NCBI RefSeq assembly: GCF_009363255.1
Contig: NZ_CP045318.1
Location: 3,523,501-3,587,500 of the forward strand
DNA from: Roseivivax sp. THAF197b
GTDB taxonomy: Bacteria; Pseudomonadota; Alphaproteobacteria; Rhodobacterales; Rhodobacteraceae
Direction of reading: 5' to 3'
DNA length: 64,000 bases
Shown: piece by piece, positions 33,696 to 53,472 of the stretch
Numbering within the stretch: the first letter of the stretch is position 1
Layout of the letters: each line of letters begins with the position of its first letter
The notes under the pieces: model-generated
What the model was told of the DNA's origin: nothing
The model's input: the letters and a program-made list of their open reading frames with translations, nothing else
The model's database searches: none
Program-made: the position numbers and the translations under genes

Positions 33696-34687
33696 TGCCG
33701 ACCGGGGCCCCGAAGACAGCCGTCGACATCGTGCTGATCGGACGCAACGAAGCGGCCCGCCTGCCTGCGGTCCTGTCGGCGGTGGCCGCGACGGACGCAC
33801 GGACGATCTATGTCGATTCAGGCTCGACCGATGGCAGCGCAGAGATCGCGGAGGCGGCGGGTCTGCCTGTCCTGCCGCTGGACCTGTCGGTTCCCTTCAC
33901 GGCGGCGCGCGCGCGCAATGCAGGTGCCGCGGCATTCGAGGCTCCGGCCCCGTATCTGCACTTCATCGACGCCGATTGCGTCCTCGATCCCGGTTGGATG
34001 GAGGAGGCAGTCACCTTCCTTGAGACGCATCCCGATCACGCGATGGTCACGGGCTGGGCCGCCGAGGAACACCCCGAACGCTCCGTCTACAATCGTCTGA
34101 TCGATTGGGAGTGGAAGGCCCCTGCGGGCCGGATCGACGCCTCGACCGGGAACATGCTGGTGCGGCGCGCGGCCTTCGATGCCGTGGGCGGGTTCGATCC
34201 CGCCTTCATCGCCTCCGAGGAAGAGGATCTGTGCCTGCGGCTCATTGCTGCGGGATGGCACCTCGAACGGCTGCCCCGGCTGATGGTGCGGCACGACGCG
34301 GCCATGACCCGGCTCGGGCAATGGTGGCGCCGGACGGAGCGCGCGGGCCACGGGCTCGCGCAAATTGCCGCGAAGCATGGCGTCCGCCGGGTCCGCGAAC
34401 GCCGCCGCGCATGGGTGTTCGGACTGGGCATCCCGCTTGCCGCGTTACTGGCGCTGGCCGTCGCCCCGTCCCTGTCGGCGCTGGTTCTCCTGGCCTATCC
34501 GCTGATCTGGGTGCGAGGTTATCGCGCGATGCGGCGTGACGGCATCGGTGCGCGGGATGCGGCGTCGTTCGCGGGGCTGTTCACGCTGGCGAAATTCCCG
34601 ACTCTGCAAGGCATGCTGCGCTACCATGCGCGTCGATGGTCGGGGCAGGATCTGCACCTGATCGAGTATCGCACGCCCACGCGGTAA
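33695..34687 (+). CDS. Membrane-anchored glycosyltransferase family 2
   Basis: A 330-residue GT-A enzyme: nucleotide-sugar site VDSGSTDGS, acid motif FIDADCV (DxD-like), a GNMLVRR loop and the EEEDLCLRL block that carries the base. C-terminal hydrophobic helices lie near residues 248-275. The ATG overlaps the stop of the GT4 gene. It probably extends the repeat unit on the cytoplasmic face. Confidence 0.88.
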   Translation: MPTGAPKTAVDIVLIGRNEAARLPAVLSAVAATDARTIYVDSGSTDGSAEIAEAAGLPVLPLDLSVPFTAARARNAGAAAFEAPAPYLHFIDADCVLDPGWMEEAVTFLETHPDHAMVTGWAAEEHPERSVYNRLIDWEWKAPAGRIDASTGNMLVRRAAFDAVGGFDPAFIASEEEDLCLRLIAAGWHLERLPRLMVRHDAAMTRLGQWWRRTERAGHGLAQIAAKHGVRRVRERRRAWVFGLGIPLAALLALAVAPSLSALVLLAYPLIWVRGYRAMRRDGIGARDAASFAGLFTLAKFPTLQGMLRYHARRWSGQDLHLIEYRTPTR

Positions 34688-36868: not shown

Positions 36869-38194
36869 TCAGCTATTCGCGCGACGTGGCAGGAAGCGCC
36901 CCCAGAGCGCGGGATCGACGAGGCGCGCCACTCCGGCGGCCAGAAGGGCGAGCCCCCCGAAGATCAGCGCGAAAAGCCCCCCGCGCCGCTTCCAGCGCCC
37001 GATATCCGAGGAGCGTTTCTGAACGACCGGCACCGAGATGACGGGCTTGATCCCGAGCTGACGCTCGAGCTGGGCCGCACTGCGGATCGCGGGGTTGAAG
37101 AGCTCCAGCAAGTATCCGATGCCGAAGGCCACGACCACGCTGAAGAGCGCGCCGAGCATCACGATGGATTTGCGGCTGCGCGAGAAGGAATATTCCGCGG
37201 GCACCGCCTCTTCCAGCACCTCCAGCCGTTCGGATTGGTCCTGCACTTCCATGACCTGCTCGAACTCCGCATCGGCGCGTTGCTGCACAACAGCGCTGTA
37301 TTGCTCCTGCAGACCGTCGAGGCGTCGCTCCAGAATGCCGAGATCCCGCGCCACGTCCGGCGCGCGGGCGATGGCCGCTTCGATCTCGCTCTCGCGCGCA
37401 ACAATGAGACGCTTTTGGTTTTCTAGAAGCTCCGTCCGACGCGCCAAATCGGCATCGCGCAGCCGGTCCGAGTTGGCGCGCAGTTCCGCAAGCTGGCGGT
37501 CGATCTCGAATTCCGACACTTCGAGCGAGGCCAGTTGCGACCGCAGCGCTGCGATGGAGCCTGGCAGCGCCTCGTCATTGGCGCGGCGGAACTCCGCGAT
37601 CTCGGCTTCGACGGCACTGATGCGGGCATCGATCTCCGAAGCTTCCTCGTCGAAGAAGGTGAGCGCGTCCTGCGCCCGCTGAAGATTGCGTGCACGCGAT
37701 TCCGCGATGGCCGCGGTCATGATGCCGTTGGCCAGGGCCGCTGCGGCTTCCGGCTCTTCCCAGACGACCTCGATGATGATCGCGAAGGGCGCGACGGTCG
37801 GCGAGAATGCGAAGTTCCCGGTTTCCGCGCGGACGGTGACCGCGTTGCGCAGGACGATCAGCTTCTCGTCCCGGCTGGGCATGCGGCCACCCGGCTCGCG
37901 CGGTTGGAACAGGCCCACATCCTCCGAGACCTGCAACAGCGACACGGTCGAGGTCATGCGCTGGCGGATCAACTCGATCCGGCGCACGGCCTCGTCGCTC
38001 ATTCGGCGGCCACTATCGGGGTCGGGAATGCGCGGACTTTCGATCTGGATCGCCGCCGTGGCGCGGTAGAGCTTGGTCTTGTTCATCGCGATGTAGACGG
38101 AGGCCAGGCACCCGATCACGACGATCAGAAGCATGATCGGCAAGCGGCGCCGAAGCGCTGAAAAGAGTTCTTCGCGGCTATGGAATTGGACCAT
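36869..38194 (-). CDS. Wzz/GumC-like polysaccharide co-polymerase
   Basis: A 441-residue inner-membrane protein with helices at residues about 18-37 and at the C-terminus (two segments near 330-350 and 405-425). Between them lies a long periplasmic coiled coil rich in Glu, Arg and Ala (about 160-310). The N-terminal YRATAAIQIESPR matches the Wzz domain. It lacks an attached kinase domain, so the CpsD-like ATPase encoded convergently is its likely partner. It sets chain length or couples polymerisation to export. Confidence 0.85.
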   Translation of the reverse strand: MVQFHSREELFSALRRRLPIMLLIVVIGCLASVYIAMNKTKLYRATAAIQIESPRIPDPDSGRRMSDEAVRRIELIRQRMTSTVSLLQVSEDVGLFQPREPGGRMPSRDEKLIVLRNAVTVRAETGNFAFSPTVAPFAIIIEVVWEEPEAAAALANGIMTAAIAESRARNLQRAQDALTFFDEEASEIDARISAVEAEIAEFRRANDEALPGSIAALRSQLASLEVSEFEIDRQLAELRANSDRLRDADLARRTELLENQKRLIVARESEIEAAIARAPDVARDLGILERRLDGLQEQYSAVVQQRADAEFEQVMEVQDQSERLEVLEEAVPAEYSFSRSRKSIVMLGALFSVVVAFGIGYLLELFNPAIRSAAQLERQLGIKPVISVPVVQKRSSDIGRWKRRGGLFALIFGGLALLAAGVARLVDPALWGRFLPRRANS

Positions 38195-38367: not shown

Positions 38368-39042
38368 TCACGACGCCCCCCGCGATCCGGCATGTAGCAC
38401 TGACAGCGACAGGCACAATCCGTCGCCCGTCCACTGGGTGACCGGAATGGCATCGCCCTTCGCGAAAGGCGGCACCGGGCCGGAAAAGCGCAAGGTCCGC
38501 CGCACACTGTCATAGCGCAGCCCCTCGAAGCCGAACAATGTGCGGGTCAGCGGGTATTGCGCCTTGTAAGCGGCTTCCTTGGCGGAAAAGAGCTGCCGCG
38601 CGGCGAGACGTCGGTCGGGGCCGATGCCCGCGATTTCATCCTCGCGGCCGATCTCGTGGACGATGTCCTCGGGCAGGGGATCGTAAGGTTCGATATCGAC
38701 ACCAAGCGAGGCGATGCGCGCGGCCTCGGCGACAACGGCGATGCAGGCCGCGGGGCAATGCGACAACGATCCGACAATGCCCTGGGGCCAGACGGGCGCG
38801 CGGTCCTCGGCCATGGGGATGGCGACAGGCGCGTATCCGAGGGCCTTCAACGCCTGCCGCGCGGCCTGACGGCCTGCCGCGAATTCCGCACGGCGACCGG
38901 CCACAGCCCGACTGACGGCGGCTTCCTCGATCGGAAACAGCGGCTCGGTCACCTGCTCCGGATCGACGACGGCCACGGCCACGCCATCGGGCCAGGCATC
39001 GCCCAGTCCCTTGATCATCTGCAAAAGGGGCATGGAGGACAT
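38368..39042 (-). CDS. 4'-phosphopantetheinyl transferase, Sfp/EntD family
   Basis: A 224-residue protein with the metal-binding GVDIE (Asp116, Glu118) and the second motif FSAKEAAYKAQY (Lys155, Glu156, Lys160) of EntD-like PPTases; GSLSHCP is the family substrate loop. It converts apo carrier proteins to holo form by adding phosphopantetheine from CoA. Its start lies 4 bases past the NRPS stop, so it almost certainly activates the NRPS and PKS carrier domains of the same transcript. Confidence 0.93.
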   Translation of the reverse strand: MSSMPLLQMIKGLGDAWPDGVAVAVVDPEQVTEPLFPIEEAAVSRAVAGRRAEFAAGRQAARQALKALGYAPVAIPMAEDRAPVWPQGIVGSLSHCPAACIAVVAEAARIASLGVDIEPYDPLPEDIVHEIGREDEIAGIGPDRRLAARQLFSAKEAAYKAQYPLTRTLFGFEGLRYDSVRRTLRFSGPVPPFAKGDAIPVTQWTGDGLCLSLSVLHAGSRGAS

Positions 39043-39046
39043 GGGC

Positions 39047-42000
39047 TTATCCCTGCGCTCTGGCACGCATTTCGCGCCGCTTGGCCATGGCTGCGCGCCG
39101 TGCATCGGCACGCGGATTGCGGATCGGGGCCGGATCGGTGGCGGGCATGCGTGTCGCCGTCGGAGCCTGCGCCTCCGTTTCCGGCGCGCGTGTCTTGGGG
39201 CGCACAGAGACCGCACGTGCGGGCGCATCGCCGCGCAGCTCCGCCACCCGGTCCGCCATTGCCTTCAGCGTCGGGAATCGGAACACATCCGTGATCGAAA
39301 ACTCCTTCGCGCGCATCCCGTCGCGGATCGCCCGGTGCAATTCCACCGCCAGCAAAGAATGCCCGCCCAGCGCGAAGAAATTGTCCGCCGCTCCGACCTG
39401 TCCCACGCCGAGCGTTGTGGCCCAGAGGTCGCCGAGCTCGGCCAGCGTTGCGCGCGATGCACCTGTCTCTTCGCGCGCCACGTACGGGGCGGGGGCTGCG
39501 GTCACCGCTTGCGGTGCGACCTCTCGGGAAGCGGCGGCAGAGTGCGATGCGGGCGCGGGCGCCTTGGGCTCCGGCAGCGCGTTGCGATCGACCTTCTTGT
39601 TCGGTGTCAGCGGCAGTGCATCGAGCGTCACGATCCGCCCCGGCACCATATGCGCGGGAAGCCCTGCGGCCAGCGTCGCCTTCATCGCCGTCTCATCGCC
39701 GGGTGTGCCCGTGACAAAGGCCAGAAGCCGGTCGTCCCGCACGATGGCGGCGGCTTGCGTCACACCGTCCAACGCCTCGATCCGGGCCTCGACCTCGCCC
39801 AGTTCGATGCGCATGCCGCGCAGCTTCACCTGCCCGTCCGCCCGTCCGAGGAAGTCGATCATCCCGTCGGCGCGGCGCATCACCATATCGCCGGTGCGGT
39901 ACATCCGGCCGCCCGTTTCCGCGAAGGGATCGGGGCGGAACCGCTCTTGGGTCAGGGTATCGCGCTGCCAATAGCCCCGTGCGACGCCCTGCCCGCCAAT
40001 CCAGAGCTCGCCCGGCTGGCCGATGGCGCAGGGCGCGCCGCCCTCGTCCAGCACGTAGAGCGCGGTATTGGCGATGGGCGCGCCGATGGGGACCACGCCG
40101 GGCACCGCCTGCGCAGGACCAACGGCGGACCAAATCGTCGTCTCCGTCGGCCCGTACATGTTCAGCACCTGCGCACGGGTGACCTGGCCCAGCGCCTCGA
40201 CCAGCGGTCCCGGCAAGGCCTCGCCTCCGAGGAAAATGTGATCGAGCTGGCGCAGCGCCGCGCGCGCGCCGTCATCGGCCATCATCAGCCGCATCAGCGA
40301 TGGCGTGCATTGCAGATGCGTGGCGCCGTGCCGCCGGATCTGCGCGGCGACGGAGAAGTCGCGATCATCGGGCACGTCCTCTCCGGAGACGCGGGCGATC
40401 ACCTCGGCCAGGGGTTTGAGCCCTTCGAGCACCACGTCAGGGGCAATACCATAATCGATGAGACAGGCCACTTCCTTGACACCGATGGCCTTCAGATCGG
40501 CGATCCGCGCCTCCGCATCATCGACGGTACCGAAAAGGCCGCTGTCGTTGAAATACCGCTCGAACGCGAAATCGAGGATGCCCTCCAACTCGTCGTCATC
40601 AAGGCTGCCGAGGTCGATCTGGTGCGGGTTCTCCACGCCCTGCGGTTTCTTGAAGGCCGGGAAGGCCCAGGCATATTGCTTGATGAGGCCCGCGGCAGAG
40701 CGCAGGTAATCCTTCATCGGCGCGCGCGCGATCTCGCGGGCCTGATCGCGGGTATCCGCGAGGTATGTGTGCAGCATGAGGCAAACCTCGCCCGTCTCGG
40801 GGTCGAGACCCGCGTCTGCCCGCGCCTCGCGGTAAAGCGCGATCTTCTCGCTGACCTCCGCAATGCTTTGGCCCAGCAGATGCGTCAGCACGTTCGCACC
40901 AAGGCGGCCCGCTTCGCGCCACGTCTCGGGGTTGCCCGCTGTCGTGAGCCAGAGCGGCAGCTCTTCCGACACCGGGCGCGGCTGGGTCACCACCTCGTGC
41001 AGGGAGCCATCGGCGCGCGGAAAAGCCACCGCCTCGCCGCGCCAAAGGCGGCGGATCTGGTCGATCGCGGTCAGCATCGCCGCCTTGTTGTCGGGCGGCG
41101 CATTTTCGGGGCGCAGCACGAAATCGTCGGGCTGCCAACCGCTTGCGATGGCGAGGCCCGCGCGGCCCTCGGTCAGGTTGTCGATCACGGCCCATTCCTC
41201 GGCCACGCGGGCGGGATGGTGCAGGGGCGCCACGCAGGAGCCTGCGCGTACGCCGATCCGGCTCGTGACGCCCGCCACCGCCGCGCCTGTCACGGACGGA
41301 TTCGGATAAGGCCCACCAAAGGCATGGAAGTGCCGCTCCGGTGTCCAGACCGCGCAGAACCCGTTCTGGTCGGCGAATTTCGCGCCTTCCAGAAGCGTAC
41401 GGTACTTGTCGCGCCCCGCCCCGTCATCATTGCCCCAGTAATAGAGCGAAAGGTTCATCCCCGAGGTGCGGCGCGGCCCCGAAGATACCGTGGAGGCCAC
41501 GTTCTCTGAGGCCATCACCACCTTGAAGCCGCGCGAGACGGCGTAGAACAGCTCAAGCACCGAGATGTCGAAATTGAGCGAGGTGACAGCGAGCCATGTG
41601 CCGCCGGGATCCGGGACGACCGCATCCATAGCCGTGAAGAAATTGGCCACCTGCCCGTGCTCGATCATCACGCCCTTGGGCTTGCCGGTCGAACCGGAGG
41701 TGTAGATCAGGTAGGCAAGATGCCCCGCCTCGGGCGCAATGCCGGGCCGCGCGGGGGAGGCGGAAAAAAGCCGCGTCTCGGTATCGAGCCACAGCTCAGC
41801 CGCCTTGTGACGCGGCAGGGACCGGGCGATGGCACTTTCGGTCACGATGATCGCGGCCCCGCTATCGGCGAGGTAATGCGCCTGTCGGTCGGCGGGATAG
41901 GCGGGATCGAGCGGCAGATAGGCCGCACCGGCCTTCAGCACCCCGAACGCCGCCGCCATCAGGCGCGGACCGCGCGCAAGATGCAGGGCGACGATGCTGT

Positions 42001-43681
42001 CCGGCCCCGCCCCCATATCCCGCAAGAGATGCGCGATGCGGTTGGCATAGTCGTCAAGCTCCCGGAAGCTGAGTTCGTGATCCTCGAAGACAAGTGCTGT
42101 GGCCTCCGGTGTCGCCTCCACCTGCGTCTCGAACCGGTCGATCATGGAGGTGTCGGACAGCGGCGTCTCGGTCGCGTTCCAGGTCTCCACCGTGAGGCGC
42201 CGTTCATCCGCGCCCATGATCTGCGCCTGCGCGGCGGGACCGTCCGCTGCATCGAGGCTGCGAAGACGGTCGGCGAGAAGCGCCGCCATGTCCGGGGTGA
42301 TCGCGCCGGTATCGAAATGCAGCCGCGTCTCGGCATCGATCTCAAGCGTCAATAGCGCGCCCTCCACCGGACCCGCCGCATCGCTGATGGCAAGGGCGGG
42401 TGTGGTGATCGGGCCCAACTTTGGCATGCGGGCAGGCAGGTCGCGGGCAAAGGGTCCCGCTTCGCGGGCCTCCGCCAGGCGCGCCGCGAAGGCCGTGCGC
42501 ATCTCCGCCACAGTGCCATCCGCCTGCGCTTTGACGGGCAGCCACGGCAGAGACAGGGCCGAGGCCGCTCGTTCGGACACATCCGGCGTGGCATAGGCGA
42601 TATGGGCTACGCCATCCGGGGCAAGTCGCGCCGCCAGCAGGGCCAGCGCCCCGGCGGGGTCACGAACATTATCGAGCGGCAGACTGTTATATGTGCCGGA
42701 CGGCGCACCAAAGCCCGGAAGGATCGCCGCGCGATACTCCGCAAGTCGGGCGCGCCAGCCACGCTCTGCCCGGGCGAGATCCGACAGGTCATCCGCAGGC
42801 GCGGGCGGCAACACGTGGCCGACCTCCGGCAATGACGTTTTGCTGTCGCCGAGAAATGTCAGGGCCGACAGCCGCAGCGCATCCTGACCACAGGCCACTA
42901 CGAGCGCATCGTTGTCCACGCCAAGGATCGTGCCGGGCGCGGCCTGCCCCGTCACGACCTCCGCGCGCCCGATGGCAAGAAGCCCGGCTTCGGTGAAGAG
43001 CTTGGGCAGCGCCACGGGGTTCCAGTATCCGCCATGATCGAGCGCGCGGACCTGCCGGGCCAGAGTCTCCGCGTCTTGCGTGAAATCCAGAACGCCGTGA
43101 TGGGCGGGCCGTGCGGTGAGGCCGAAATAGCTGCGCTCGGTTTCGGGTTGCGCGTAACTCTCCGGCGCGCCCGTCGCCAGCGCGTCGATCAGCGCATCGA
43201 AACTGTCGAGTGCTGCGGCAAAGCACTTCATGTTGAGCGTGAGCGCGGTGTCCTCCGGCCCGATTTCCACGTTGCGGGCAACAAGGATATCGCCGCGATC
43301 GACGCCCTGCTCCATCAGGTGCCAGGTGATACCGTGGCGCGTCTCGCCTGCATGCAGCGCCCAGACCGGCGCATTGAGCCCGGCATAGCGCGGCAGCGGA
43401 CCATCGTGGAAATTCACCCCGCCCTTGGTGCCCAGCGCCAGCACATCCGCGGGCAGGAGGTCGAGATTGGCCACGCTCAGCACCCAATCGGCGGCATGGC
43501 CATCGAGCCGCTCCGCGAGACCCTGACCGGGCGCGATGACGGGCAGACCCGCAGCCGCGGCCCAGGCGCTCACATCCGCATCGCGGCTCACGCAGGCGGT
43601 GATCCGGTGGCCCGCGCGCAAGAGCTTCTCACCCGCTTCTCGGGTCAGGCGGTCATTGCCGATCAGGATCGCAGAAAACAT
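39047..43681 (-). CDS. Single-module NRPS: formyltransferase, adenylation domain with inserted luciferase-like monooxygenase, PCP
   Basis: 1544 residues from the ATG at 43681, 4 bases after the GT2 stop. Residues 1-290 are a complete methionyl-tRNA-formyltransferase-like domain (Asn90, His92, Asp128). Residues 320-500 resemble only the tail of a condensation domain, with no HHxxxDG. The adenylation domain spans about 515-1370: A3 TSGSTGKPKG, A4 with Asp705, A5 NMYGPTE and A10 Lys1363. Between A4 and A5, residues about 740-1097 are an FMN-dependent luciferase-like monooxygenase of the MupA/Atu3671 natural-product type. The pocket reads DILQFGMIWK, close to the glycine code. The PCP serine is Ser1442. 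There is no thioesterase; the chain presumably passes to the PKS. Predicted start unit: formylated, oxidised glycine. Confidence 0.9.
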   Translation of the reverse strand: MFSAILIGNDRLTREAGEKLLRAGHRITACVSRDADVSAWAAAAGLPVIAPGQGLAERLDGHAADWVLSVANLDLLPADVLALGTKGGVNFHDGPLPRYAGLNAPVWALHAGETRHGITWHLMEQGVDRGDILVARNVEIGPEDTALTLNMKCFAAALDSFDALIDALATGAPESYAQPETERSYFGLTARPAHHGVLDFTQDAETLARQVRALDHGGYWNPVALPKLFTEAGLLAIGRAEVVTGQAAPGTILGVDNDALVVACGQDALRLSALTFLGDSKTSLPEVGHVLPPAPADDLSDLARAERGWRARLAEYRAAILPGFGAPSGTYNSLPLDNVRDPAGALALLAARLAPDGVAHIAYATPDVSERAASALSLPWLPVKAQADGTVAEMRTAFAARLAEAREAGPFARDLPARMPKLGPITTPALAISDAAGPVEGALLTLEIDAETRLHFDTGAITPDMAALLADRLRSLDAADGPAAQAQIMGADERRLTVETWNATETPLSDTSMIDRFETQVEATPEATALVFEDHELSFRELDDYANRIAHLLRDMGAGPDSIVALHLARGPRLMAAAFGVLKAGAAYLPLDPAYPADRQAHYLADSGAAIIVTESAIARSLPRHKAAELWLDTETRLFSASPARPGIAPEAGHLAYLIYTSGSTGKPKGVMIEHGQVANFFTAMDAVVPDPGGTWLAVTSLNFDISVLELFYAVSRGFKVVMASENVASTVSSGPRRTSGMNLSLYYWGNDDGAGRDKYRTLLEGAKFADQNGFCAVWTPERHFHAFGGPYPNPSVTGAAVAGVTSRIGVRAGSCVAPLHHPARVAEEWAVIDNLTEGRAGLAIASGWQPDDFVLRPENAPPDNKAAMLTAIDQIRRLWRGEAVAFPRADGSLHEVVTQPRPVSEELPLWLTTAGNPETWREAGRLGANVLTHLLGQSIAEVSEKIALYREARADAGLDPETGEVCLMLHTYLADTRDQAREIARAPMKDYLRSAAGLIKQYAWAFPAFKKPQGVENPHQIDLGSLDDDELEGILDFAFERYFNDSGLFGTVDDAEARIADLKAIGVKEVACLIDYGIAPDVVLEGLKPLAEVIARVSGEDVPDDRDFSVAAQIRRHGATHLQCTPSLMRLMMADDGARAALRQLDHIFLGGEALPGPLVEALGQVTRAQVLNMYGPTETTIWSAVGPAQAVPGVVPIGAPIANTALYVLDEGGAPCAIGQPGELWIGGQGVARGYWQRDTLTQERFRPDPFAETGGRMYRTGDMVMRRADGMIDFLGRADGQVKLRGMRIELGEVEARIEALDGVTQAAAIVRDDRLLAFVTGTPGDETAMKATLAAGLPAHMVPGRIVTLDALPLTPNKKVDRNALPEPKAPAPASHSAAASREVAPQAVTAAPAPYVAREETGASRATLAELGDLWATTLGVGQVGAADNFFALGGHSLLAVELHRAIRDGMRAKEFSITDVFRFPTLKAMADRVAELRGDAPARAVSVRPKTRAPETEAQAPTATRMPATDPAPIRNPRADARRAAMAKRREMRARAQG

Positions 43682-43685
43682 CACA

Positions 43686-44693
43686 TCACTCCGCAAAAGA
43701 CGGGTTGGGCCGGGGCGCGCGCGTGTCGTGCCGGACCGCGGGTCTGAAAAGCGCGCGCAGATCGTGGCGCACGAGCCGCCGCAGCGTTCCAGGCGGATCG
43801 AGACGGGGCGCCCCCATGAGGCGCCGCAGCTTCCAGACGGAAAGGCCCGCCGCGCGCGCCAGCGTCGCCGCCACCGCATAGGCACGGCCGTGACACAGGG
43901 TGAAATACCGCCAGCGGCTGTCGAACCAGTACTTCGGCACCTCCGCCCATTGCTTCATGCCGGTCGAGACGGAGCCCAGATGCTCCACCCGGCTTTCGAC
44001 GAGATAGGTCGCGGTCCAGCCCTGCTGTCGGGCGCGGAAGAAGTGCTCCGTCTCTTCGAAATAAAGGAAGAAGCCGTCATCGAGCAGCCCCACCTCGTCG
44101 AGCATGTCCTGCCGCATCAGCATCGACGCCCCGGCCAGCCAGTCGACCGGCCGCGTGCGCGTGAGATCCAGGAAGGGCACGCGGTATTTGTGCAGCGCGC
44201 GGGTGACGATGCCCGTTCGGGCCGTGCCCTCGAATTCCGACGCGATCGTGGGAAAACGGAAGGCCGAGATATGGATCGGCATATCCTCGGACCAAAGCTG
44301 CGAGCCGGCAAAACCGTCCTGCGGATGCCTCTCCAGATGGTCGATCAGCACGCGCACCGCATCGGGCGCCGGAAACGCATCGGAGTTCAGCACGTAGACA
44401 TAGTCGGGCCGCGCCCCATCGCTCCGCCCTGCCCGGATGCCCGCATTGTTGCCGAAGGCAAAGCCTCCGTTGCGGCCCGATTGCACGACGCGCGCGGGCA
44501 CCGGCCATTCCGCGCCTTCGACAAGGGCGCGCAATGTCGCCTCGGAGCCATCGCCGCTGTCATTGTCGACGATGACCATCTCCGCATCGAGCCCGTCGAG
44601 GGCGCGTGCCAGGGCCTCTGCAGCGCGCGCGGTCATGTCGGGCGTGCGCCAGTTCAGAAGCACTGCGAGGAGCTTGATCTCACGCGCGCTCAT
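43686..44693 (-). CDS. Glycosyltransferase family 2 within the PKS-NRPS operon
   Basis: A 335-residue GT-A protein similar to rhamnosyltransferase-type GT2s: VIVDNDSGDGSEATL for nucleotide binding, YVLNSDAFPAPD for the metal site, and LMRQDMLDEVGLLDDGFFLYFEETEHFFRARQ carrying the catalytic acidic residues. The ATG at 44693 overlaps the PKS stop (ATGA) and its stop is 4 bases before the NRPS start. Translation is therefore coupled to the assembly-line genes, tying sugar transfer to the same pathway. Confidence 0.88.
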   Translation of the reverse strand: MSAREIKLLAVLLNWRTPDMTARAAEALARALDGLDAEMVIVDNDSGDGSEATLRALVEGAEWPVPARVVQSGRNGGFAFGNNAGIRAGRSDGARPDYVYVLNSDAFPAPDAVRVLIDHLERHPQDGFAGSQLWSEDMPIHISAFRFPTIASEFEGTARTGIVTRALHKYRVPFLDLTRTRPVDWLAGASMLMRQDMLDEVGLLDDGFFLYFEETEHFFRARQQGWTATYLVESRVEHLGSVSTGMKQWAEVPKYWFDSRWRYFTLCHGRAYAVAATLARAAGLSVWKLRRLMGAPRLDPPGTLRRLVRHDLRALFRPAVRHDTRAPRPNPSFAE

Positions 44694-47600
44694 TCCGCGG
44701 CCTCCGTGCGCGCGAAAGGCACGACCGCGCCTGCATCGCCGGGCCGCGCCGCATCGCGCATCGCCTGGGCAAGGGCCGCGGCCAGCACGCGCACATTGGG
44801 CTCGAGCACCATGGAATCGTGGTCGCCCGGCACCTCGATCACCTGCAGATCTGACAGATATTCGCCCCAATCGTTGTCATCGCTGAGATAGGCGCGTTCG
44901 TCGTTCACGAGCCGCCCGCCCGCCACGCGCCACTTCTCCCGCAAGGGCGGACGGAACAGCACGACGCGGCCCGCATAGGGTGCCATGTCATAGGCAGCGA
45001 TGGCCCCGAGGAACGCGGCCTCGATCTCCGTGTTGTGGAAGCTTTCGGGCGCGTCGGTCGCGTCCTTCGCGCGGCGCTTCTCGATCTCCCAGCGGATTCG
45101 GTTCTGCGCCCAGATCAGCGGATAGCCCACGCCCTTGCGACGCAGTTCCTGCCACTGGATCACCGCGCGGTCGACAGCCAGGAGAGGCCGCTTCTGCGGC
45201 AGCGGCGTGTCAAGGAGCGCCACCAAAGCGACCTCGTCGCCGAGATCGCCAAGCTGGCGCGCCATCTCGAATGCGATGATCCCGCCGCCAGAGAACCCGC
45301 CCAGATGATAAGGCCCATCAGGCTGCACCTGCTTCAGCTCCGCGATGTAGTCCCGCGCCGCCTCCTCGATGGAGCGGTGAGGGTCCTCGTCACCGTAAAG
45401 CCCCTTGGCCTGCAGCCCGTAGAACGGCCGGTCGCGTCCCATCAGAAGCGCGAGGTGTCGCAGGTTCAGCACGTTGCCGAACATGCCCGCCACGAGGAAG
45501 AAGGGCGGCTTCGATCCGGGCTCGCCCTCATGCATGGGCACGATATGCGAGAAGCGCCGTTCAGGCCGGATTTGCGCGGGCGCGTCGGCGTCACCGCTCG
45601 CGGTGTCGGAAATGCCCGCCTTCTCGGCGATGAGGGCGGCGCAGGCGCGGATCGTCGGGGCCTCGAACAGGACCGAGATCGGGAAATCGACGCGGTAGGC
45701 TTTCTTGACCATCGAGAAAAGCCGCACCGCGATCAGCGAATGCCCGCCCAGATCAAAGAAGCTGTCGTCGACGCCGACATTGCGCACGCCCAGAAGCTCC
45801 TCCCAGAACCCGGCAAGCCGCTTCTCGATATCGGTCTCGGGCGCTGCGAAATCCTCGTCCATAACCGGGCGGTCAAACGCCTGCATCTGGGTGGCGGGCC
45901 GCGCCGCGATATCGGCCTGTGCGCGCAATGCCGCGACCGGAACGGGAGAAACGGCGATCACCGGGCGGCTTTGCGCAAGCGCCCGCGCGAAGGCCTCGGC
46001 CCCTTCATCTGCGCGAATGCCCTGACCCAGATTGTGCTGCAGCATCTCCTCGCCCGGCGACAAGGCGGCGCCTGTTCCCTTCATCTCCGTCTCGATCTCG
46101 GCTGCGGTCAGGCGCGGCGCGCGACGCAGCTGGGCGGGATCGTCGAGCCGCCGGATCGCAAAGCCTGCAATCTCCATGACGACCGTGCCGTCGGGCGCCG
46201 CGAGCGTCACGTCGAAGCTGGCACTCTCGGCGGAGGAATGCCCCCCCTGCGCCGGACGGACCCAACTCACGATCCGGTCGGGCAAGGGCCCCCAAAGCGT
46301 GACGCGCGCGTAAGACAGCGGCACCCAAAGATGATCGGGCACGTAGCCCGGGATCAGCTCCATCGCCCAGCCTGTCGCGATATCGAGAAGGGCGGGATGC
46401 ACGAGGCAGTCATCCCCCTCCGCCGCCTTCGCAAGCGTGAGGTCGGCGAGGCCCTCATCGGGCGACAGCGCGCGTGCGGTCAGAACCCGCCAGCGCGGCC
46501 CGAAGTCGAGATGCGCCTCTTGCCCGGTCGTCAGCGTCTGGCCCGGCGGTGCGGTTTCGGGTGTACGAAGGCGTGCGCGGATCGCGGGCAGGTCGATGCG
46601 CGGCGCGGCCCCACGCGCGCGCAGGTCGATCTGCGCCTCGGCAAAGCGGGTGAGGCCAACCCGCCCCTCCGCGCGCGCCTCGCACAACAGATCGAGCTTG
46701 TAGCCCGCCTCCGTCCGCTCCAGCCGCGTGGTGACGGATCGCGCGCCGTCTTCGGGAACGGTCAGCGGGCGCAGAAAGGCCAGATCGCGGATCTCGAATG
46801 CCGCGCCCTCATGCGCCTCGGACAGCGCATGCGCGGCCAGCGTCACCGAGGCCGTGCCGGGAAGCAGCGCCAGCCCGTCGCGGGTGCGATGCTCGTCGAT
46901 GATCCAGTCGCGGGTCGAGAATTGCGTCTCGAGAACGCGCCGCCCCTCGGCGTCGAAGGACATCGTATCGAGCAACGCGCGGCTGACCGGAATCTCCGGT
47001 GCGGGCTCCGTGTCGCCCGTTCGGCGGGCAAGCGCGTCGGCGGCCATACCTGCCTCGGCCCAGATGCCCCAATTGATTGCGACGCTGCGCGTGGCATCGC
47101 CCGCACGGGCCTGCGCGAGCGCATTGAGATACTCGTTCGCGGCCACGTAATCGAGCTGCCCGGCTGCCGCCGCCATGGTCGAGACGGAGGAGAAATACGC
47201 GATCCACTCCGCCACCCCGCCCGAAAAGAGCCGGTCGATCACGTCGGTGCCGTGCAGCTTCGGGGTGAAGATATCCTCCACATCCGCAGGGCTGAGCGCC
47301 AGGAACGGCTGGTCCGAGAGGCGGCCCGCCGCGTGGATCACCCCGGCGATCGGGCCGAAGCGGTCCGTTGCCGCGTCCCTGACCCGGCGCATCGCGTCTT
47401 CGTTGCAGACATCGGCAGTGGCCACCATGACCTCCGCACCGGCCGCTTCCAGCGCTTCGACATGAGCGATGGCGCGGCGCACCGGGTCCTGCGGCGCATG
47501 GCGGCGGGTATATTCCGTCCAGTCGCTGCGCGGCGGCAGATCGGTGCGCGACACGAGGATCAGCTTGGCGCCGTTGCGGGCAGCGGCCAGCCCGAGCGTC

Positions 47601-50600
47601 CGGCAAATCCCGCCAAACCCACCGGTCATCAGGATCGTCCCGGACAGGTGCGTCTCTGCCTCTTGCGGCGCGGGGGAAAGTGGCGCGTCGATCAGCGCGC
47701 GCTCGTACCGGCGACCATCCCGGATCGCGGCTTCGCGGGTGCCCGGCGGGGAGATCAGCTCGTCCGTGATCTGATGACAGAGCGACTGGTGCGCTGTCTC
47801 GGTCGCCTGCCGGGCCTCCTTGGCGCGCCAGAACGGCGCAGGTTCAGGCTCGGGCAGGACCACATCGAGGGTCGACAGGGTCAGCCCCTCGGCCTCGCGG
47901 GGGATCACCCGAACCGGACCCGCAATCGTCGCCTTCACCGGATGCGGCAGCGCCTCGTCGCGCACCCGTGCCGCGCCATTGGTCACAACGTCGATATGGA
48001 TGTGGCTCAGCCCCTCATCGACCAGTGCCTGCCCGAGGAACAGCAGCGAATAGAAGCCCTGTTCCTGCAGACGATGGAAGAAACTCGATCCCGGCCGGTG
48101 GCTTTCATCCGCGGTCACCCCCCAGAAATGCGCGATCCGGCTGGGCGTGAAGCCGCGCGCGGCAAGATCGGAGAGCAACAGGTCGTACCCCTCGCGTCCG
48201 CGTTCCGGCGCGATATTGTAGGCCGTGTCCGACAGGCGCGCGAAGACATCACCCGGACGCACCTCGATCACACGATGCCCGGCGGCCTTCAGTGGCGTCA
48301 GCGCATCGCGCGCAAGGCCCGCATCGTCGGCGAAGACGAGCCAGGTCTCTGTCGGCAGGGCGTCCGCATCATGCGCGATATCGACGGGCGGCTCGGCAGC
48401 ACGCGGGCGCCAGATCGGAACTGCCCCCCAGTCGCGCATGTCGTCGCTACGCGCGGGATAGCGCGCGGAAGTATCGCTGACCGCATTGCCCGGTTCGATG
48501 AAATAGGGCGCATGCTGGAAGGCATAGCTCGGCAGCGGCACCCGGTTGCGCCGTGCCTCGCCCCAGACCTGATCCCAATCGACCGCAACGCCCAAGCCCC
48601 AGAGGCGGCCCAGCACCTCGTGGAAGTAGCGGTCGTCGGCGATGGCATCGTTCGGATGGCGCAAGGCAGGCAGAACGCGGTTTGCGCCGATCTGCGGCTG
48701 CTGCCGCGCCAGCGTCGACAGCGCGTGGCCCGGCCCCACCTCCATCAGCACGCGGTTCTCGGGGGCGGCAATGGTGGCGACGCCGTCCGCGAAACGCACG
48801 GTGTTGCGCAGATGATCGACCCAGTAGTCGGGGCTGGTCGCCTCCGCATCGGTCATCCAGGTGCCGGAGCGGTTCGAGATGATCGGGATCTGCGGCGCCT
48901 TCAGGTCGAGCCCGGCAAGATAATCGCGGAAGGCGGGCAGGATCGGCTCCAGCATGCGCGAATGGGCCGCGACATCGATGCCGATCCGCTGGCATTCGAC
49001 GCCTTGCGCCTTCAGCCGCGCCTCAAGCGCATCAAGCGCGGCAACGGGACCGGTGGCCACCGATAGCTGCGCGGAATTGACCGCGGCAAGATCGAGATCG
49101 TCGCCCAGATGCGGCAGCAGCGCGGCTTCGGACATGGCCACGGACAACATACCGCCGCGCGGCACCGAGTCGAACAGCCTGCCGCGAAGATGCACGAGGC
49201 CGATCGCGTCCTCGAAACCGAGAACCCCCGCGATGCAGGCTGCGGTGTTCTCACCCATGGAATGTCCCATGAGCGCTGCGGGCACGACGCCCCAGCTTTC
49301 CCAGAGCTTCGCAAGCGCCACCTCGGTGATCAGGATGAGCGGAAGCTGCACGGAAGGCTGGCGCAGGCGCTGCTCGGCCTCGGGCCCGGAGGCGAGCCAG
49401 GCATCGCGCGGATCGTCCGCCGTCAGCGTCGCGAGGTGATCGAGGCCCCGCGTCATCCAATCGGCGAAGACCGGCTCCGTCTCATAAAGGCCGCGCGCCA
49501 TTTGCGGGTATTGCGCGCCGCCGCCCGGAAACAGGAAGGCCACGTCCGGCGCGGTCAGGGCCTTGTGGCTGTGCACGCGATACCGGTCGCCCTTTTCCAG
49601 AAGCGTGGCCGCCTCGGCATGGGTTTCAGCGACGACGACCCGGCGCTCGGTGAAGTCCGCGCGGCCCTCGCGCAGGGTATAGGCGATGTCGGCGAGCGGG
49701 TGTTCGGGATGGTGGCGCAGATGCGTCGCAAGCCGCGTGGCATTGCCATCGAGCGCCGCTTTGCTGCGGGCCGACAGGGTCAGGATCTGGAAAGGAAACT
49801 CGGGCGCGTCCGAGGCCGCGCGTTCGGGCGCCTCCTCCAGCACCACATGAACATTCGTGCCGCCCACGCCCAGCGAATTGACGCCCGCGCGGCGCGGATG
49901 ATCCCGACGCGGCCAATCGCGCAGGCTGTCATTCACGCGGAAGGGCGAGGCCTCGAAATCGATGGCGGGGTTGGGCGCCTCATAGCCCAGACTGGGCGGC
50001 ATCTGCCCGTGTTTCAGCGACAGCGCGGTCTTGATGAGGCTCGCCGCACCCGCCGCCGTGTCGAGATGGCCGATATTCGTCTTCACCGATCCAATCCGGC
50101 AGAAGCCTGTCTGCTCCGTCGTCTCGCGGAAGGCGGCGGTCAGGGCCGACACCTCGATCGGATCGCCCAGATAGGTGCCGGTGCCGTGGCATTCGACATA
50201 ATCGATGGTGCCCGCGGGCGTGTTCGCTATGGCCTGCGCTTCGGCCACGGCCGCGGCCTGACCACCCACCGAGGGCGCGAGATAGCCCGCCTTGTCGGCC
50301 CCGTCATTGTTGACCGCCGAGCCCTTGATCACTGCCCAGATATGATCGCCGTCGGCGATGGCATCCGAGAGGCGCCGCAGCACCACGACGCCCGTGCCGG
50401 AACCGAAAACCGTGCCCTGCGCGCGATGATCGAAGGCATGGCAGGCGCCGTCGGGCGACAGGATCTCGTTCTCCTTGAAGAAGTAGCCCTGGCCCTGCGG
50501 CAGCTCGATCGTCACGCCACCCGCAAGCGCCATGTCGCATTCGCCGTTCAGCAGCGATTGCGCCGCGTAATGCACCGCCACGAGTGATGTGGAACAGGCC

Positions 50601-51151
50601 GTCTGCAGCGACAGCGACGGCCCCTTGAGGTCGAAGATGTGGCTCGCGCGGGTGGTCAGGAAGTCCTTGTCGTTGCCGGTATGGCGCAAGAGGAACATGC
50701 CCGTGCTGTCCACCAGATCGGGGTTCGAGCAGAGGTTGAAATAGAAGTAGCTGCCCATGCCGCAGCCCGCGAAGACGCCAACGGGGCCGGGGAAGTTCTG
50801 CGGGACATGGCCTGCGTTTTCCATCGCCTCCCAAGCCACCTCCAGAAACCGTCGATGCTGGGGGTCGAGGATTGCGGCCTCTTTCGGGGAGAAGCCGAAG
50901 AACTCGGCATCGAACATCTCGAACCCGTCGAGGCGCGCGGCGTAAGGTACGTAATCCTTCCGGCGCAGTAGCCCTTGCGGCACGCCCGCATCCAGAAGCT
51001 CGGCCTCGCTCAGCCGCGCGATGGAGGACACACCGCTGCGCAGATTGTCCCAGTACTGGGCAATCGTCTCCGCACCGGGCAGATGCGCCGCCATGCCGAC
51101 AATCGCGATGTCGGAATATGCAATGTCCGGACCCTGTTCAGGTCGTGTCAT
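44690..51151 (-). CDS. Single-module type I polyketide synthase: KS-AT-KR-DH-ACP-TE
   Basis: 2153 residues. KS about 13-440 with Cys186 (TACSTS), His322 and His362. AT about 535-850 with Ser631 in GHSMGE; its selectivity motif VAAHS fits neither the malonyl nor the methylmalonyl consensus well. KR about 1168-1370 with TGGFGG, Ser1321/1322 and Tyr1335. DH about 1415-1670 with His1421 in an HX4GX4P variant and Asp1590. ACP Ser1805 in GGHSL. TE about 1880-2150 with Ser1954 (GFSGGG), Asp1981 and His2111. One extension, reduction and dehydration followed by release is expected. It is first in the block PKS-GT2-NRPS-PPTase; the 112-base gap upstream could hold a promoter. Confidence 0.93.
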   Translation of the reverse strand: MTRPEQGPDIAYSDIAIVGMAAHLPGAETIAQYWDNLRSGVSSIARLSEAELLDAGVPQGLLRRKDYVPYAARLDGFEMFDAEFFGFSPKEAAILDPQHRRFLEVAWEAMENAGHVPQNFPGPVGVFAGCGMGSYFYFNLCSNPDLVDSTGMFLLRHTGNDKDFLTTRASHIFDLKGPSLSLQTACSTSLVAVHYAAQSLLNGECDMALAGGVTIELPQGQGYFFKENEILSPDGACHAFDHRAQGTVFGSGTGVVVLRRLSDAIADGDHIWAVIKGSAVNNDGADKAGYLAPSVGGQAAAVAEAQAIANTPAGTIDYVECHGTGTYLGDPIEVSALTAAFRETTEQTGFCRIGSVKTNIGHLDTAAGAASLIKTALSLKHGQMPPSLGYEAPNPAIDFEASPFRVNDSLRDWPRRDHPRRAGVNSLGVGGTNVHVVLEEAPERAASDAPEFPFQILTLSARSKAALDGNATRLATHLRHHPEHPLADIAYTLREGRADFTERRVVVAETHAEAATLLEKGDRYRVHSHKALTAPDVAFLFPGGGAQYPQMARGLYETEPVFADWMTRGLDHLATLTADDPRDAWLASGPEAEQRLRQPSVQLPLILITEVALAKLWESWGVVPAALMGHSMGENTAACIAGVLGFEDAIGLVHLRGRLFDSVPRGGMLSVAMSEAALLPHLGDDLDLAAVNSAQLSVATGPVAALDALEARLKAQGVECQRIGIDVAAHSRMLEPILPAFRDYLAGLDLKAPQIPIISNRSGTWMTDAEATSPDYWVDHLRNTVRFADGVATIAAPENRVLMEVGPGHALSTLARQQPQIGANRVLPALRHPNDAIADDRYFHEVLGRLWGLGVAVDWDQVWGEARRNRVPLPSYAFQHAPYFIEPGNAVSDTSARYPARSDDMRDWGAVPIWRPRAAEPPVDIAHDADALPTETWLVFADDAGLARDALTPLKAAGHRVIEVRPGDVFARLSDTAYNIAPERGREGYDLLLSDLAARGFTPSRIAHFWGVTADESHRPGSSFFHRLQEQGFYSLLFLGQALVDEGLSHIHIDVVTNGAARVRDEALPHPVKATIAGPVRVIPREAEGLTLSTLDVVLPEPEPAPFWRAKEARQATETAHQSLCHQITDELISPPGTREAAIRDGRRYERALIDAPLSPAPQEAETHLSGTILMTGGFGGICRTLGLAAARNGAKLILVSRTDLPPRSDWTEYTRRHAPQDPVRRAIAHVEALEAAGAEVMVATADVCNEDAMRRVRDAATDRFGPIAGVIHAAGRLSDQPFLALSPADVEDIFTPKLHGTDVIDRLFSGGVAEWIAYFSSVSTMAAAAGQLDYVAANEYLNALAQARAGDATRSVAINWGIWAEAGMAADALARRTGDTEPAPEIPVSRALLDTMSFDAEGRRVLETQFSTRDWIIDEHRTRDGLALLPGTASVTLAAHALSEAHEGAAFEIRDLAFLRPLTVPEDGARSVTTRLERTEAGYKLDLLCEARAEGRVGLTRFAEAQIDLRARGAAPRIDLPAIRARLRTPETAPPGQTLTTGQEAHLDFGPRWRVLTARALSPDEGLADLTLAKAAEGDDCLVHPALLDIATGWAMELIPGYVPDHLWVPLSYARVTLWGPLPDRIVSWVRPAQGGHSSAESASFDVTLAAPDGTVVMEIAGFAIRRLDDPAQLRRAPRLTAAEIETEMKGTGAALSPGEEMLQHNLGQGIRADEGAEAFARALAQSRPVIAVSPVPVAALRAQADIAARPATQMQAFDRPVMDEDFAAPETDIEKRLAGFWEELLGVRNVGVDDSFFDLGGHSLIAVRLFSMVKKAYRVDFPISVLFEAPTIRACAALIAEKAGISDTASGDADAPAQIRPERRFSHIVPMHEGEPGSKPPFFLVAGMFGNVLNLRHLALLMGRDRPFYGLQAKGLYGDEDPHRSIEEAARDYIAELKQVQPDGPYHLGGFSGGGIIAFEMARQLGDLGDEVALVALLDTPLPQKRPLLAVDRAVIQWQELRRKGVGYPLIWAQNRIRWEIEKRRAKDATDAPESFHNTEIEAAFLGAIAAYDMAPYAGRVVLFRPPLREKWRVAGGRLVNDERAYLSDDNDWGEYLSDLQVIEVPGDHDSMVLEPNVRVLAAALAQAMRDAARPGDAGAVVPFARTEAAE

Positions 51152-51262: not shown

Positions 51263-52630
51263 TCACAGCGCCCCTGATGCGAGCGCAATGATGTCGGACC
51301 TGTGCACGGTGAAGAGCAGTGCTGCCACGGCAACGCCCAGCCCGGCGAACAGCGCATCATGCAGCGGGTCCCAGGCGCCCGACTTCCGCGACAGCCACAC
51401 CACGACCGGATAGGACAGAAGCCCGGCCAACCCCTGCCCGACAATCGCGCCGAGAAGCCCCGCCATCTCGAGCCCGACATAGACGCATGCCAGAAGGGCT
51501 GTCGCGCGAAACAGCGCCAGCACGAAGAAATTGCGGCTGTCGCCCGCCGCAAGTGCTGCCTGATCATACGTCAGGGCGATGATCTGCGGGATCCACATCA
51601 CGGCCAGCAGCACGATTACCGGCCCCGCATCGCGGTAGCGGTCGTCATAGAGGATCTCGACCAGCCACAGGCCGGCGAGCCCCAGAACCGCGATGATAAC
51701 GAGAAGGGCCGCGGTCACGACCATGCGCATACGGCGCAGTTTCAGGAAGTTCGCGCGGCTCTCGCCCGGAGGGGCCTCGCGGTAGATCGGGATCAGCACC
51801 TTGCCCGCCACCATCCGGCCCAGCATGTTCGGGAAGGAGGCGAGGAAATAGCCGATATTGTAGACGCCGAATGCACCGAGGCTCAGGAAGCGACCGATCA
51901 GGATGCGGTCCCCCTGGCTGACGAAGAAGCCCGCAATGGTCGACAGGAAGATCCATTTTCCGAAGGAGGTCAGCTCGCTCGCAGCCTCGCGGTCCCAGGT
52001 CAGCCGGTCGGGATGGCCGGGGAGGAACACCCAGTTGAAGGCCACGTTGATGATGGAGGCCAGAACCCCGGAAATCACCAGCGCCCAGACCGATTCCATC
52101 CACCAGGCAAGACCGATGGCGAGGATCACACCGAGGGTTTGCGACAGAATATCCAGCATCGACACCCGGCCCAGCAGAAGGTGCCTGTGGGCGGTCGCGA
52201 CCCGCATCGGGTTGACGCCCAGCACAACGAGGCTGAGGGCCGCGGCGGGCAGGATCTGGAGGAGCTGCGGCGCGTTGTAGAACACCGACAGAGGCCATGC
52301 GAGCAGGCAGGCAAAGAGCCACAGGATCACACCGCGCACCGCCTGGATCGTGAAGGCGGTGTTCAGAAAGCGCGGATCCTCGCCCCGCTTGTGGCCCATG
52401 ATCGCCTGCATCACCCCGGTATCTGAGAAGTTCGTCAGGCCCTGGATGATCACCGCGACAAGCGCCATCAGGCCGAACGCCTCCGGGAACAAAAGCCGCG
52501 TCAGGATCAGGTTGGAGCCGAGACGGATCAGCTGGCTCGCCGCGAAGGAGCCCGTCGTCCACACCGAAGAGCGCACGGCGCGCGCGCCCAGAGAGGCCCC
52601 GCGAAAGCGCTGTAGGCTGAAGACGCTCAT
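51263..52630 (-). CDS. Wzx-type oligosaccharide flippase (MOP superfamily)
   Basis: A 455-residue membrane protein with about 12 helices. The start SSVWTTGSFAASQLIRLGSNLILTRLLFPEAFGLMAL is typical of polysaccharide-synthesis flippases. It moves undecaprenyl-linked repeat units, or another lipid-linked product, across the inner membrane. It overlaps the upstream GT2 gene by ATGA and precedes the PKS by 112 bases. Confidence 0.9.
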   Translation of the reverse strand: MSVFSLQRFRGASLGARAVRSSVWTTGSFAASQLIRLGSNLILTRLLFPEAFGLMALVAVIIQGLTNFSDTGVMQAIMGHKRGEDPRFLNTAFTIQAVRGVILWLFACLLAWPLSVFYNAPQLLQILPAAALSLVVLGVNPMRVATAHRHLLLGRVSMLDILSQTLGVILAIGLAWWMESVWALVISGVLASIINVAFNWVFLPGHPDRLTWDREAASELTSFGKWIFLSTIAGFFVSQGDRILIGRFLSLGAFGVYNIGYFLASFPNMLGRMVAGKVLIPIYREAPPGESRANFLKLRRMRMVVTAALLVIIAVLGLAGLWLVEILYDDRYRDAGPVIVLLAVMWIPQIIALTYDQAALAAGDSRNFFVLALFRATALLACVYVGLEMAGLLGAIVGQGLAGLLSYPVVVWLSRKSGAWDPLHDALFAGLGVAVAALLFTVHRSDIIALASGAL

Positions 52631-53472
52631 CGGCCCCGGCTCCAGCCGTCTTTGGCAGGCCTGAGACGGGCCGCGAGCGCCACTCCGGAATAGACCGCGA
52701 AGCCCAAGGGATCACGCGCTGCGATGGCCAGCTTGCGCGACAGCGGAAAAGGACGGTGATCGTCGTTGCCTAGAAGCTCGGGATGCGCCCTCGCGATCTC
52801 GGCCACCCCGCGATCCTGCCTTGCACGCACGCGCACCAGGTTGCCGAAGCCGGTCACCACAGGCCATTCGTATCGTGCAGGCACGGCGTGTCGTTCATGC
52901 GGCTTAAAATGCAGACGCACGAAGGTATCGTCGGAAATGAGCGCCGGAAACGCGGCCCAGCGCATCCGGCCCGCCGCGTTGACCGCGAACAAGCCGCAGC
53001 CGGGCACGCAATCGGCCATGAAGGGCACCTGCGCCCAGACACGGGCATAGCCCCGGCTTGCGGCATTCTCCGGCGCCACGATATTCAGCGTACCCGTCAC
53101 GAAACGCGGCTGCGGATCGGCCAGCGCATCGGCGATCTGCGCCAGCAGGGGCGGCGAGACGATCACATCCGCATCGAGGTAGACCCGCGCCTGCGCCCGC
53201 GCCGCCGCATCGCCCGAATTGAGCGCGGAGGGCTTGCCCGTTCGGGGCGCAGTGATCACGCGCAGAGCCCAGCCCTTCGCGGCGAAATCGCCCTCGAACC
53301 CGCGGGCAATCCCGGCCGTATCGTCGGTCGAGCCGTTATCGACAACGATGATCTCGGGCGCTTGGTCCGCGGTCCAATCCGACGCCAGAAGCGCCGTCAG
53401 GCACGCACCGATATGCCCCGCCTCGTTCGACGCGGGGATGATCACGCTGATATGGGGCGCGTTATCCGTCAT
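52627..53472 (-). CDS. Glycosyltransferase family 2
   Basis: A 281-residue GT-A protein: ISVIIPASNEAGHIGACL, VVDNGSTDDTAGIA, the acid motif YLDADVIV and a DDTFVRL acid block. There is one weak hydrophobic segment near the C-terminus. It is coupled to the flippase gene by an ATGA overlap, so it probably builds the unit the flippase carries. Confidence 0.88.
   Translation of the reverse strand: MTDNAPHISVIIPASNEAGHIGACLTALLASDWTADQAPEIIVVDNGSTDDTAGIARGFEGDFAAKGWALRVITAPRTGKPSALNSGDAAARAQARVYLDADVIVSPPLLAQIADALADPQPRFVTGTLNIVAPENAASRGYARVWAQVPFMADCVPGCGLFAVNAAGRMRWAAFPALISDDTFVRLHFKPHERHAVPARYEWPVVTGFGNLVRVRARQDRGVAEIARAHPELLGNDDHRPFPLSRKLAIAARDPLGFAVYSGVALAARLRPAKDGWSRGR

Follow-up and report, generated by a model that had tools for sequence, protein, structure and literature searches.

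What does a polyketide synthase (PKS) module make when it shares a compact operon with a nonribosomal peptide synthetase (NRPS) starter module, a glycosyltransferase and a phosphopantetheinyl transferase (PPTase)? The question is raised by four genes on the minus strand of a 64,000-nucleotide stretch of Roseivivax sp. THAF197b (contig NZ_CP045318.1, positions 3,523,501 to 3,587,500), which we call the window and whose numbering is used throughout. The initial annotation read these genes as a self-contained assembly line for a very small, possibly glycosylated metabolite. We find instead that the block forms part of an exopolysaccharide (EPS) locus of the Wzx/Wzz type and is inherited together with it. 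We consider it likely that the assembly line is dedicated to EPS, with glycine being loaded, N-formylated, alpha-hydroxylated, extended with malonate, reduced, dehydrated and transferred by a thioesterase to a sugar of the EPS repeat. The four genes of the operon are the following.

44690..51151, minus strand: type I PKS with one module, KS-AT-KR-DH-ACP-TE, 2153 amino acids (Pfam/NCBIfam)
43686..44693, minus strand: family 2 glycosyltransferase (GT2), 335 amino acids, between PKS and NRPS (Pfam/NCBIfam)
39047..43681, minus strand: NRPS starter module, formyltransferase, half condensation (C) domain, adenylation (A) domain with an inserted luciferase-like monooxygenase (LLM), and peptidyl carrier protein (PCP), 1544 amino acids (Pfam/NCBIfam and fold)
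38368..39042, minus strand: Sfp/EntD-type PPTase, 224 amino acids (Pfam/NCBIfam)

On recheck, the coordinates of this PKS-GT2-NRPS-PPTase operon and its junctions were exact: the PKS stop and GT2 start overlap as ATGA (44690-44693), four bases separate the GT2 stop from the NRPS ATG, and four more separate the NRPS stop from the PPTase ATG. The length of the NRPS is counted from this ATG, and an alternative GTG start one codon upstream is possible. Pfam and NCBIfam likewise confirmed a single PKS module and a single starter NRPS module; the half condensation domain of 206 residues in the NRPS was absent from the earlier domain list. Elsewhere in the window's genome there are two further matches to PF01648, the PPTase family. 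Outside the window, at about 3095000-3106000 of the same genome (G000:C1), lie large KS-bearing frames of 2754 and 1665 amino acids, the latter with a PPTase match, which perhaps encode a fatty-acid or polyunsaturated-fatty-acid-type synthase.

The inheritance of the block follows that of the polysaccharide genes around it. We profiled 61 genomes: the window's own, 8 of the same genus, 28 of the same family and 24 of the same class. A long NRPS match (at least 1238 bits), a close Wzx flippase (at least 430 bits) and a close WecG glycosyltransferase (at least 239 bits) occur in the same 18 of these genomes, a count that ignores kinship. Outside the 18, the next-best scores are 456 bits for the NRPS (fragments, in genome G030), 78 bits for Wzx and 120 bits for WecG. 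Among the 18 NRPS matches, two are incomplete, one having a broken frame (G017) and the other lying at a contig edge (G036). In G017, at about 517800-528500 of contig C3, the PKS and NRPS frames are both in pieces. The Wzx and WecG queries each give one match in the window's own 4.24-Mb genome, and both matches fall inside this locus. The exosortase XrtD, which lies nearby in two relatives, L139 and L143, was also considered as a partner. It served as a control and does not follow this pattern, passing its cut-off in 3 of the 18 genomes with the NRPS and in 6 of the remaining 43, and it was therefore rejected.

An NRPS match at E 1e-100 was found in 41 of 100 genera drawn from the family, the window's own included. 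In a class-wide draw only 2 of 142 genomes carried the NRPS, the window's own and that of another family member, so the gene is rare outside the family in that draw. The closest relatives of the window, by protein and by locus, are from Roseivivax, and 16 relative genomes have the block in a locus of this kind, locally rearranged.

For closer comparison we aligned 102 NRPS sequences and 98 PKS sequences, the latter limited to regions having a long enough frame. They come from the window, 80 named loci (those scoring best among at least 508 confirmed matches), the 16 relative genomes and 5 plasmid loci. Three sequences are duplicates (L055 = G007, L056 = G002 and L058 = G006), leaving 99 distinct NRPS and 95 distinct PKS sequences; L140, L141, L143 and L144 lie outside the 102-region set. 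Within the stretch examined, all 80 named loci have the NRPS and GT2, and 79 have the PKS (the exception being one short contig). Of the other genes, Wzx was found at 64 loci, Wzz at 63, the PPTase at 62 and the autokinase at 52, and 74 loci have at least one of Wzx, Wzz, the tyrosine kinase (BY-kinase) and WecG. Further genes of this EPS locus accompany the block in 99 of the 102 regions. The other three are two from Litoreibacter, one with glycosyltransferases and a polysaccharide deacetylase and the other with nucleotide-sugar and acyltransferase genes, and one from Aliiroseovarius (L139). The genes are not scattered in relatives, an outcome that the initial annotation had set against its own proposal: the PKS lies upstream of the NRPS on one strand in 97 of the 101 regions that hold both genes.

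In the window, the surrounding EPS locus comprises the following genes.

51263..52630, minus strand: oligosaccharide flippase, Wzx-like (PF13440, E 4.9e-51)
52627..53472, minus strand: family 2 glycosyltransferase (Pfam)
53582..55618, minus strand: 678-amino-acid protein whose only Pfam domain is a set of C-terminal RTX calcium-binding repeats (48 of the 80 named loci)
36869..38194, minus strand: Wzz-like chain-length protein (PF02706, 22.6 bits, under the 25.5 cut-off)
34870..36798, plus strand: CpsD-like tyrosine autokinase (P-loop NTPase; best NCBIfam match to EPS autokinases, under cut-off)
32496..34687, plus strand: two glycosyltransferases, GT4 (32496-33695) and GT2 (33692-34687) (Pfam)
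31534..32289, minus strand: WecG/TagA/CpsF glycosyltransferase (PF03808)
29224..31556, plus strand: GMC oxidoreductase and SDR, also within the locus of several relatives
26508..29227, plus strand: possible Wzy polymerase or ligase (weak; PF04932, 25.5 bits, under the 31.7 cut-off) and a GT4 glycosyltransferase (PF00534)

The best NCBIfam match of the Wzz-like protein is the XrtA-system chain-length family, under cut-off, and the RTX protein may act on or bind EPS. Just past the RTX gene, and outside the EPS locus, are a sensor histidine kinase gene (56113-57942, NCBIfam under cut-off) accompanied by a response-regulator-like gene (57946-58374), and an FAD-linked oxidase that is distantly DprE1-like (58622-60118, NCBIfam under cut-off).

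Because the block is embedded in and inherited with this locus, the GT2 encoded between PKS and NRPS is more likely an EPS transferase than a tailoring enzyme of a free compound, and the idea of a self-contained, possibly glycosylated metabolite does not find support. It is conceivable that the linkage reflects co-regulation instead, and that the product is a free, diffusible small molecule, such as a butenolide resembling 5-formamido-2(5H)-furanone, to which the GT2 might add a sugar and which might serve as a signal controlling EPS or biofilm formation. The predicted C4 product could lactonise, a terminal thioesterase usually releases an acid or a lactone, GT2 lies inside the operon, and the neighbouring sensor histidine kinase is a candidate link. 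We nevertheless regard this explanation as unlikely, because no dedicated small-molecule exporter was recognised among the 20 window proteins scanned and because strict co-inheritance with a flippase and WecG is easier to explain by a shared polymer than by a shared regulon.

If the block serves EPS, its chemistry should be legible from its domains, beginning with those of the NRPS, all on the minus strand.

42803..43681: formyltransferase, Fmt/ArnA fold, residues 1-293 (Pfam N and C parts)
42182..42799: half condensation domain, residues 295-500, C-terminal lobe only, HHxxxDG lobe absent
41453..42181: A domain part 1, motifs A3 and A4 (TIGR01733; code residues D, I and L in 102 of 102)
40400..41452: luciferase-like monooxygenase (MOX/LLM) inserted between A4 and A5, residues 744-1094 (TIGR04020)
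39512..40399: A domain part 2, A5-A10 (code DILQ(F/M)GMIWK)
39245..39436: PCP (Ser in 100 of 102, two gaps)
39050..39124: conserved basic C-terminal tail (96 of 102 sequences)

The formyltransferase, with its catalytic Asn, His and Asp, is fused ahead of A-PCP as in initiation modules of the LgrA type. Asn and His are kept in 101 of the 102 NRPS sequences and Asp in all of them; the residues missing from the alignment are probably accounted for by the Deinococcus locus L138, in which the formyltransferase is probably a separate open reading frame of 304 amino acids. The 206-residue linker that follows gave only chance matches in a Pfam scan and was recognised as half a condensation domain by its fold. 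A search of the NRPS sequences for HHxxxDG returned only an HHxxxD string within the formyltransferase part of six of them. The protein stops after the PCP and a basic tail, with a pattern RR..MR in 96 of 102 sequences; in 92 of 102 the final 30 residues carry a net charge between +4 and +7. This tail could be used for docking to the PKS or to the membrane.

Since formyltransferases of this fold also modify sugars, the domain could act on an amino sugar, with the NRPS and PKS adding an aminoacyl or acyl group and glycine not being oxidised. Indeed, ArnA and Fmt have the nearest fold, and the matches include sugar N-formyltransferases. We think this highly improbable. The formyltransferase residues lie in the NRPS frame in 101 of the 102 aligned sequences, the NRPS profile scores highest in the PDB against LgrA, a formylating synthetase, and the LLM motifs are almost invariant in 16 aligned sequences, so the oxidation is probably used. 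PDB entry 8xjz, which contains a polyketide synthase and a peptide synthetase, was matched by the PKS and the NRPS alike.

The A domain points to the amino acid that would be formylated. Its code, with positions mapped through motif anchors rather than by structure alignment, reads D-I-L-Q-(M/F/Y/L/C)-G-M-I-W-K across the 102 sequences (M in 54, F in 34, Y in 7, L in 6 and C in 1 at the variable position); a single sequence departs from the later M, a single one from I, and one has a gap at K. A published survey lists DILQLGMIWK in four glycine A domains with MOX and places all of its MOX modules in glycine A domains (PMC12283262); the window-type code DILQ(F/M)GMIWK agrees with it, and glycine is the predicted substrate. 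The inserted domain itself scores 474.4 bits against TIGR04020, the MupA/Atu3671 LLM family, whose curated cut-off is 244.45, and the motif order A3-A4-LLM-A5 is found in 96 of 102 sequences, that of the window among them, while the remaining six gave no hit to one or two of the motifs in their strict form.

The same insertion, MOX between A4 and A5 of a glycine A domain, occurs in the myxothiazol and melithiazol synthetases, where it alpha-hydroxylates glycine and the resulting carbinolamide breaks to give an amide and a glyoxylyl thioester (PMC10204066, PMC11342130). By analogy, the monooxygenase encoded in the window probably hydroxylates the alpha carbon of glycine. The two systems differ in position: theirs ends the line, with a thioesterase following, and cuts the chain to a terminal amide, whereas here the module is a starter with a formyltransferase and no complete condensation domain, and its unit would pass to the PKS. 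The formyl group may supply the N-acyl that the myxothiazol MOX substrate receives from an upstream chain, and may steady the carbinolamide. The expectation of the initial annotation that the aminoacyl unit is formylated or oxidised is supported, probably in both respects and on glycine. A related but different arrangement is seen on a plasmid of Streptomyces NBC_01343 (L142:13567-19361), where an NRPS has both a condensation domain with HHxxxDG and an A4-A5 LLM and is overlapped by a flavin reductase gene, a likely partner of the FMN-dependent domain.

SolF and MupA share with our NRPS a flavin monooxygenase that acts alpha to a thioester (PMC10204066, PMC10952193). SolF, of solanimycin, is proposed to make alpha-hydroxyglycine, and its domain is inserted between A8 and A9 (PMC10204066); MupA is a separate protein, and both come from antimicrobial pathways. 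Given that MupA belongs to the same TIGR04020 family and alpha-hydroxylates a beta-ketoacyl thioester on an acyl carrier protein (PMC10952193), the monooxygenase might instead oxidise the PKS beta-keto intermediate and yield a 2-hydroxy product, which would be compatible with an EPS role. We judge this very unlikely, as the LLM lies inside a glycine-type A domain at A4-A5, just as in the glycine-acting MOX modules of myxothiazol and melithiazol.

The domains of the PKS, again on the minus strand, are as follows.

49832..51112: KS, residues 14-440 (Cys/His/His in 97 of 98 homologues, one gap)
48695..49537: AT, residues 539-819 (Ser 98 of 98; His 98 of 98 with an (I/V)AAH motif)
47054..48340: KR with structural sub-domain, residues 938-1366 (Ser/Tyr/Asn 98 of 98)
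46130..46957: DH, placed after KR, residues 1399-1674 (His 98 of 98, Asp 98 of 98)
45629..45820: ACP, residues 1778-1841 (Ser 98 of 98)
44777..45430: thioesterase (TE), from residue 1908, end approximate (Ser/Asp 98 of 98, His 97 of 98)

The KR has an additional conserved Asp in all 98 PKS homologues, a residue that we take to mark B-type ketoreductases. Because catalytic residues are kept in nearly all of the 102 NRPS and 98 PKS sequences aligned, the architecture is not a product of chance. The C-terminus of the PKS (44690-44701) reads Ala-Ala-Glu in 90 of 98 sequences, and this ending is also present in Aminobacter, where no GT2 gene overlaps it; it is possibly a docking or processing end.

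The working order of the two proteins is suggested by the missing active lobe of the condensation domain, by the location of the TE on the PKS and by versions of the block in which the gene order is changed. The NRPS gene lies directly before the PKS gene in Deinococcus (L138), Aliiroseovarius (L139) and Methylobacterium (L140), and these three NRPS-first pairs fit an order of NRPS, then PKS. The two genes are divergent in Shinella, Aminobacter and Rhizobium grahamii. Versions in Rhizobiales and Deinococcus likewise lie among polysaccharide genes. Nine plasmid records with the NRPS-PKS pair were examined. In six the annotation shows polysaccharide genes around it (Shinella, Aminobacter, Paracoccus, Deinococcus, Ruegeria and Parasedimentitalea), the last four with a "sugar transferase" and Shinella with a polyprenyl glycosylphosphotransferase. 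Two further records carry no annotation: on the R. grahamii plasmid, relatives of Wzx and WecG adjoin the pair, and a Methylobacterium bullatum plasmid encodes a DegT-family aminotransferase and a Wzz/kinase-like protein whose Pfam score falls slightly short of the cut-off. The ninth record is the Aliiroseovarius one with an exosortase. Paracoccus liaowanqingii has a second NRPS of about 1350 amino acids beside a WecG gene in the same EPS locus (L137:6870-10925). In Aliiroseovarius M344 a related NRPS precedes an NRPS/PKS of about 3080 amino acids (L139:10510-30517), near the exosortase XrtD and a VPLPA-CTERM protein.

Taken in this order, the assembly line of an EPS-dedicated pathway would work as follows. 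The NRPS would load glycine onto its PCP, the formyltransferase domain would formylate the glycine nitrogen to give the smallest possible N-acyl-glycyl thioester, and the inserted monooxygenase would hydroxylate the alpha carbon. The resulting N-formyl-alpha-hydroxyglycyl unit, or a glyoxylyl unit if the carbinolamide breaks, would be handed to the KS of the PKS, which would add one malonate and then reduce and dehydrate the product. The result is probably one C4 group for the EPS repeat, made from glycine and malonate, either 4-formamido-4-hydroxycrotonyl or 4-oxocrotonyl. Gene context suggests that this group is attached to EPS, in which case the TE would move it to a sugar of the lipid-linked repeat or release it for attachment, and the neighbouring transferases, flippase and chain-length proteins would build and export the decorated polymer. 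We can also imagine a self-curing biofilm adhesive, in which each EPS repeat bears 4-formamido-4-hydroxycrotonyl that collapses to the aldehyde-enoate 4-oxocrotonyl and so cross-links or glues the matrix, but this extension is speculative and quite unlikely.

Several observations weigh against an EPS-dedicated line. In genome G030, the one exception among 61, fragments of the NRPS occur with neither a close Wzx nor a close WecG, and the 61-genome sample is phylogenetically nested, with 8 of the 18 positives from one genus. Eight of the 102 regions lack Wzx, Wzz, BY-kinase and WecG in the stretch examined, and Aliiroseovarius L139 adjoins an exosortase gene instead. In the window, the Wzy and Wzz matches are both under their curated Pfam cut-offs, and a Pfam scan of 16 locus proteins recognised no separate acyltransferase, which would leave the transfer to the TE. 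On the chemical side, the A code depends on its anchor-based mapping; the introduction of PMC12283262 puts MOX insertions at A8-A9, unlike PMC10204066; and since the LLM family also acts on a beta-ketoacyl chain, the oxidised carbon could be the polyketide one (PMC10952193).

How does this system compare with those already described? Its surroundings share a flippase, several glycosyltransferases, a putative chain-length protein and a putative tyrosine autokinase with EPS loci of the Wzx/Wzy type; here, in addition, an assembly line is built in and inherited with the locus flippase. In rhizobia, RkpA is a type I fatty-acid/polyketide synthase encoded among the genes for K-antigen, a capsular polysaccharide, and is thought to make a fatty acyl chain; we know of no NRPS partner for it. 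In the initiation module of LgrA, F-A-PCP, which starts linear gramicidin, the formyltransferase is joined directly to the A domain and the substrate is valine, whereas here glycine is predicted, a MOX is inserted, and half a condensation domain lies between the formyltransferase and the A domain. Our module has some, not all, of the defining features of the LgrA type and of the type of MtaG and MelG, which we take to be the terminal modules of myxothiazol and melithiazol. The initial annotation knew of no compound with exactly this line-up, and we found none in the open-access papers searched, nor any description of the line-up or of a PKS-NRPS in such EPS loci, which is a weak negative because subscription papers lie largely outside that search. 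As far as we have searched, the individual parts are known and their combination is new.

The starter architecture, in which a formyltransferase replaces half of a condensation domain ahead of a glycine A-MOX module, is apparently undescribed. Genome-mining tools would probably call the block an orphan PKS-NRPS metabolite cluster, whereas its presence in 41 of the 100 genera sampled in the family points to a widespread link between assembly-line chemistry and EPS export. If this is true, the matrix polymers of common marine bacteria would carry non-sugar groups made by PKS-NRPS chemistry.

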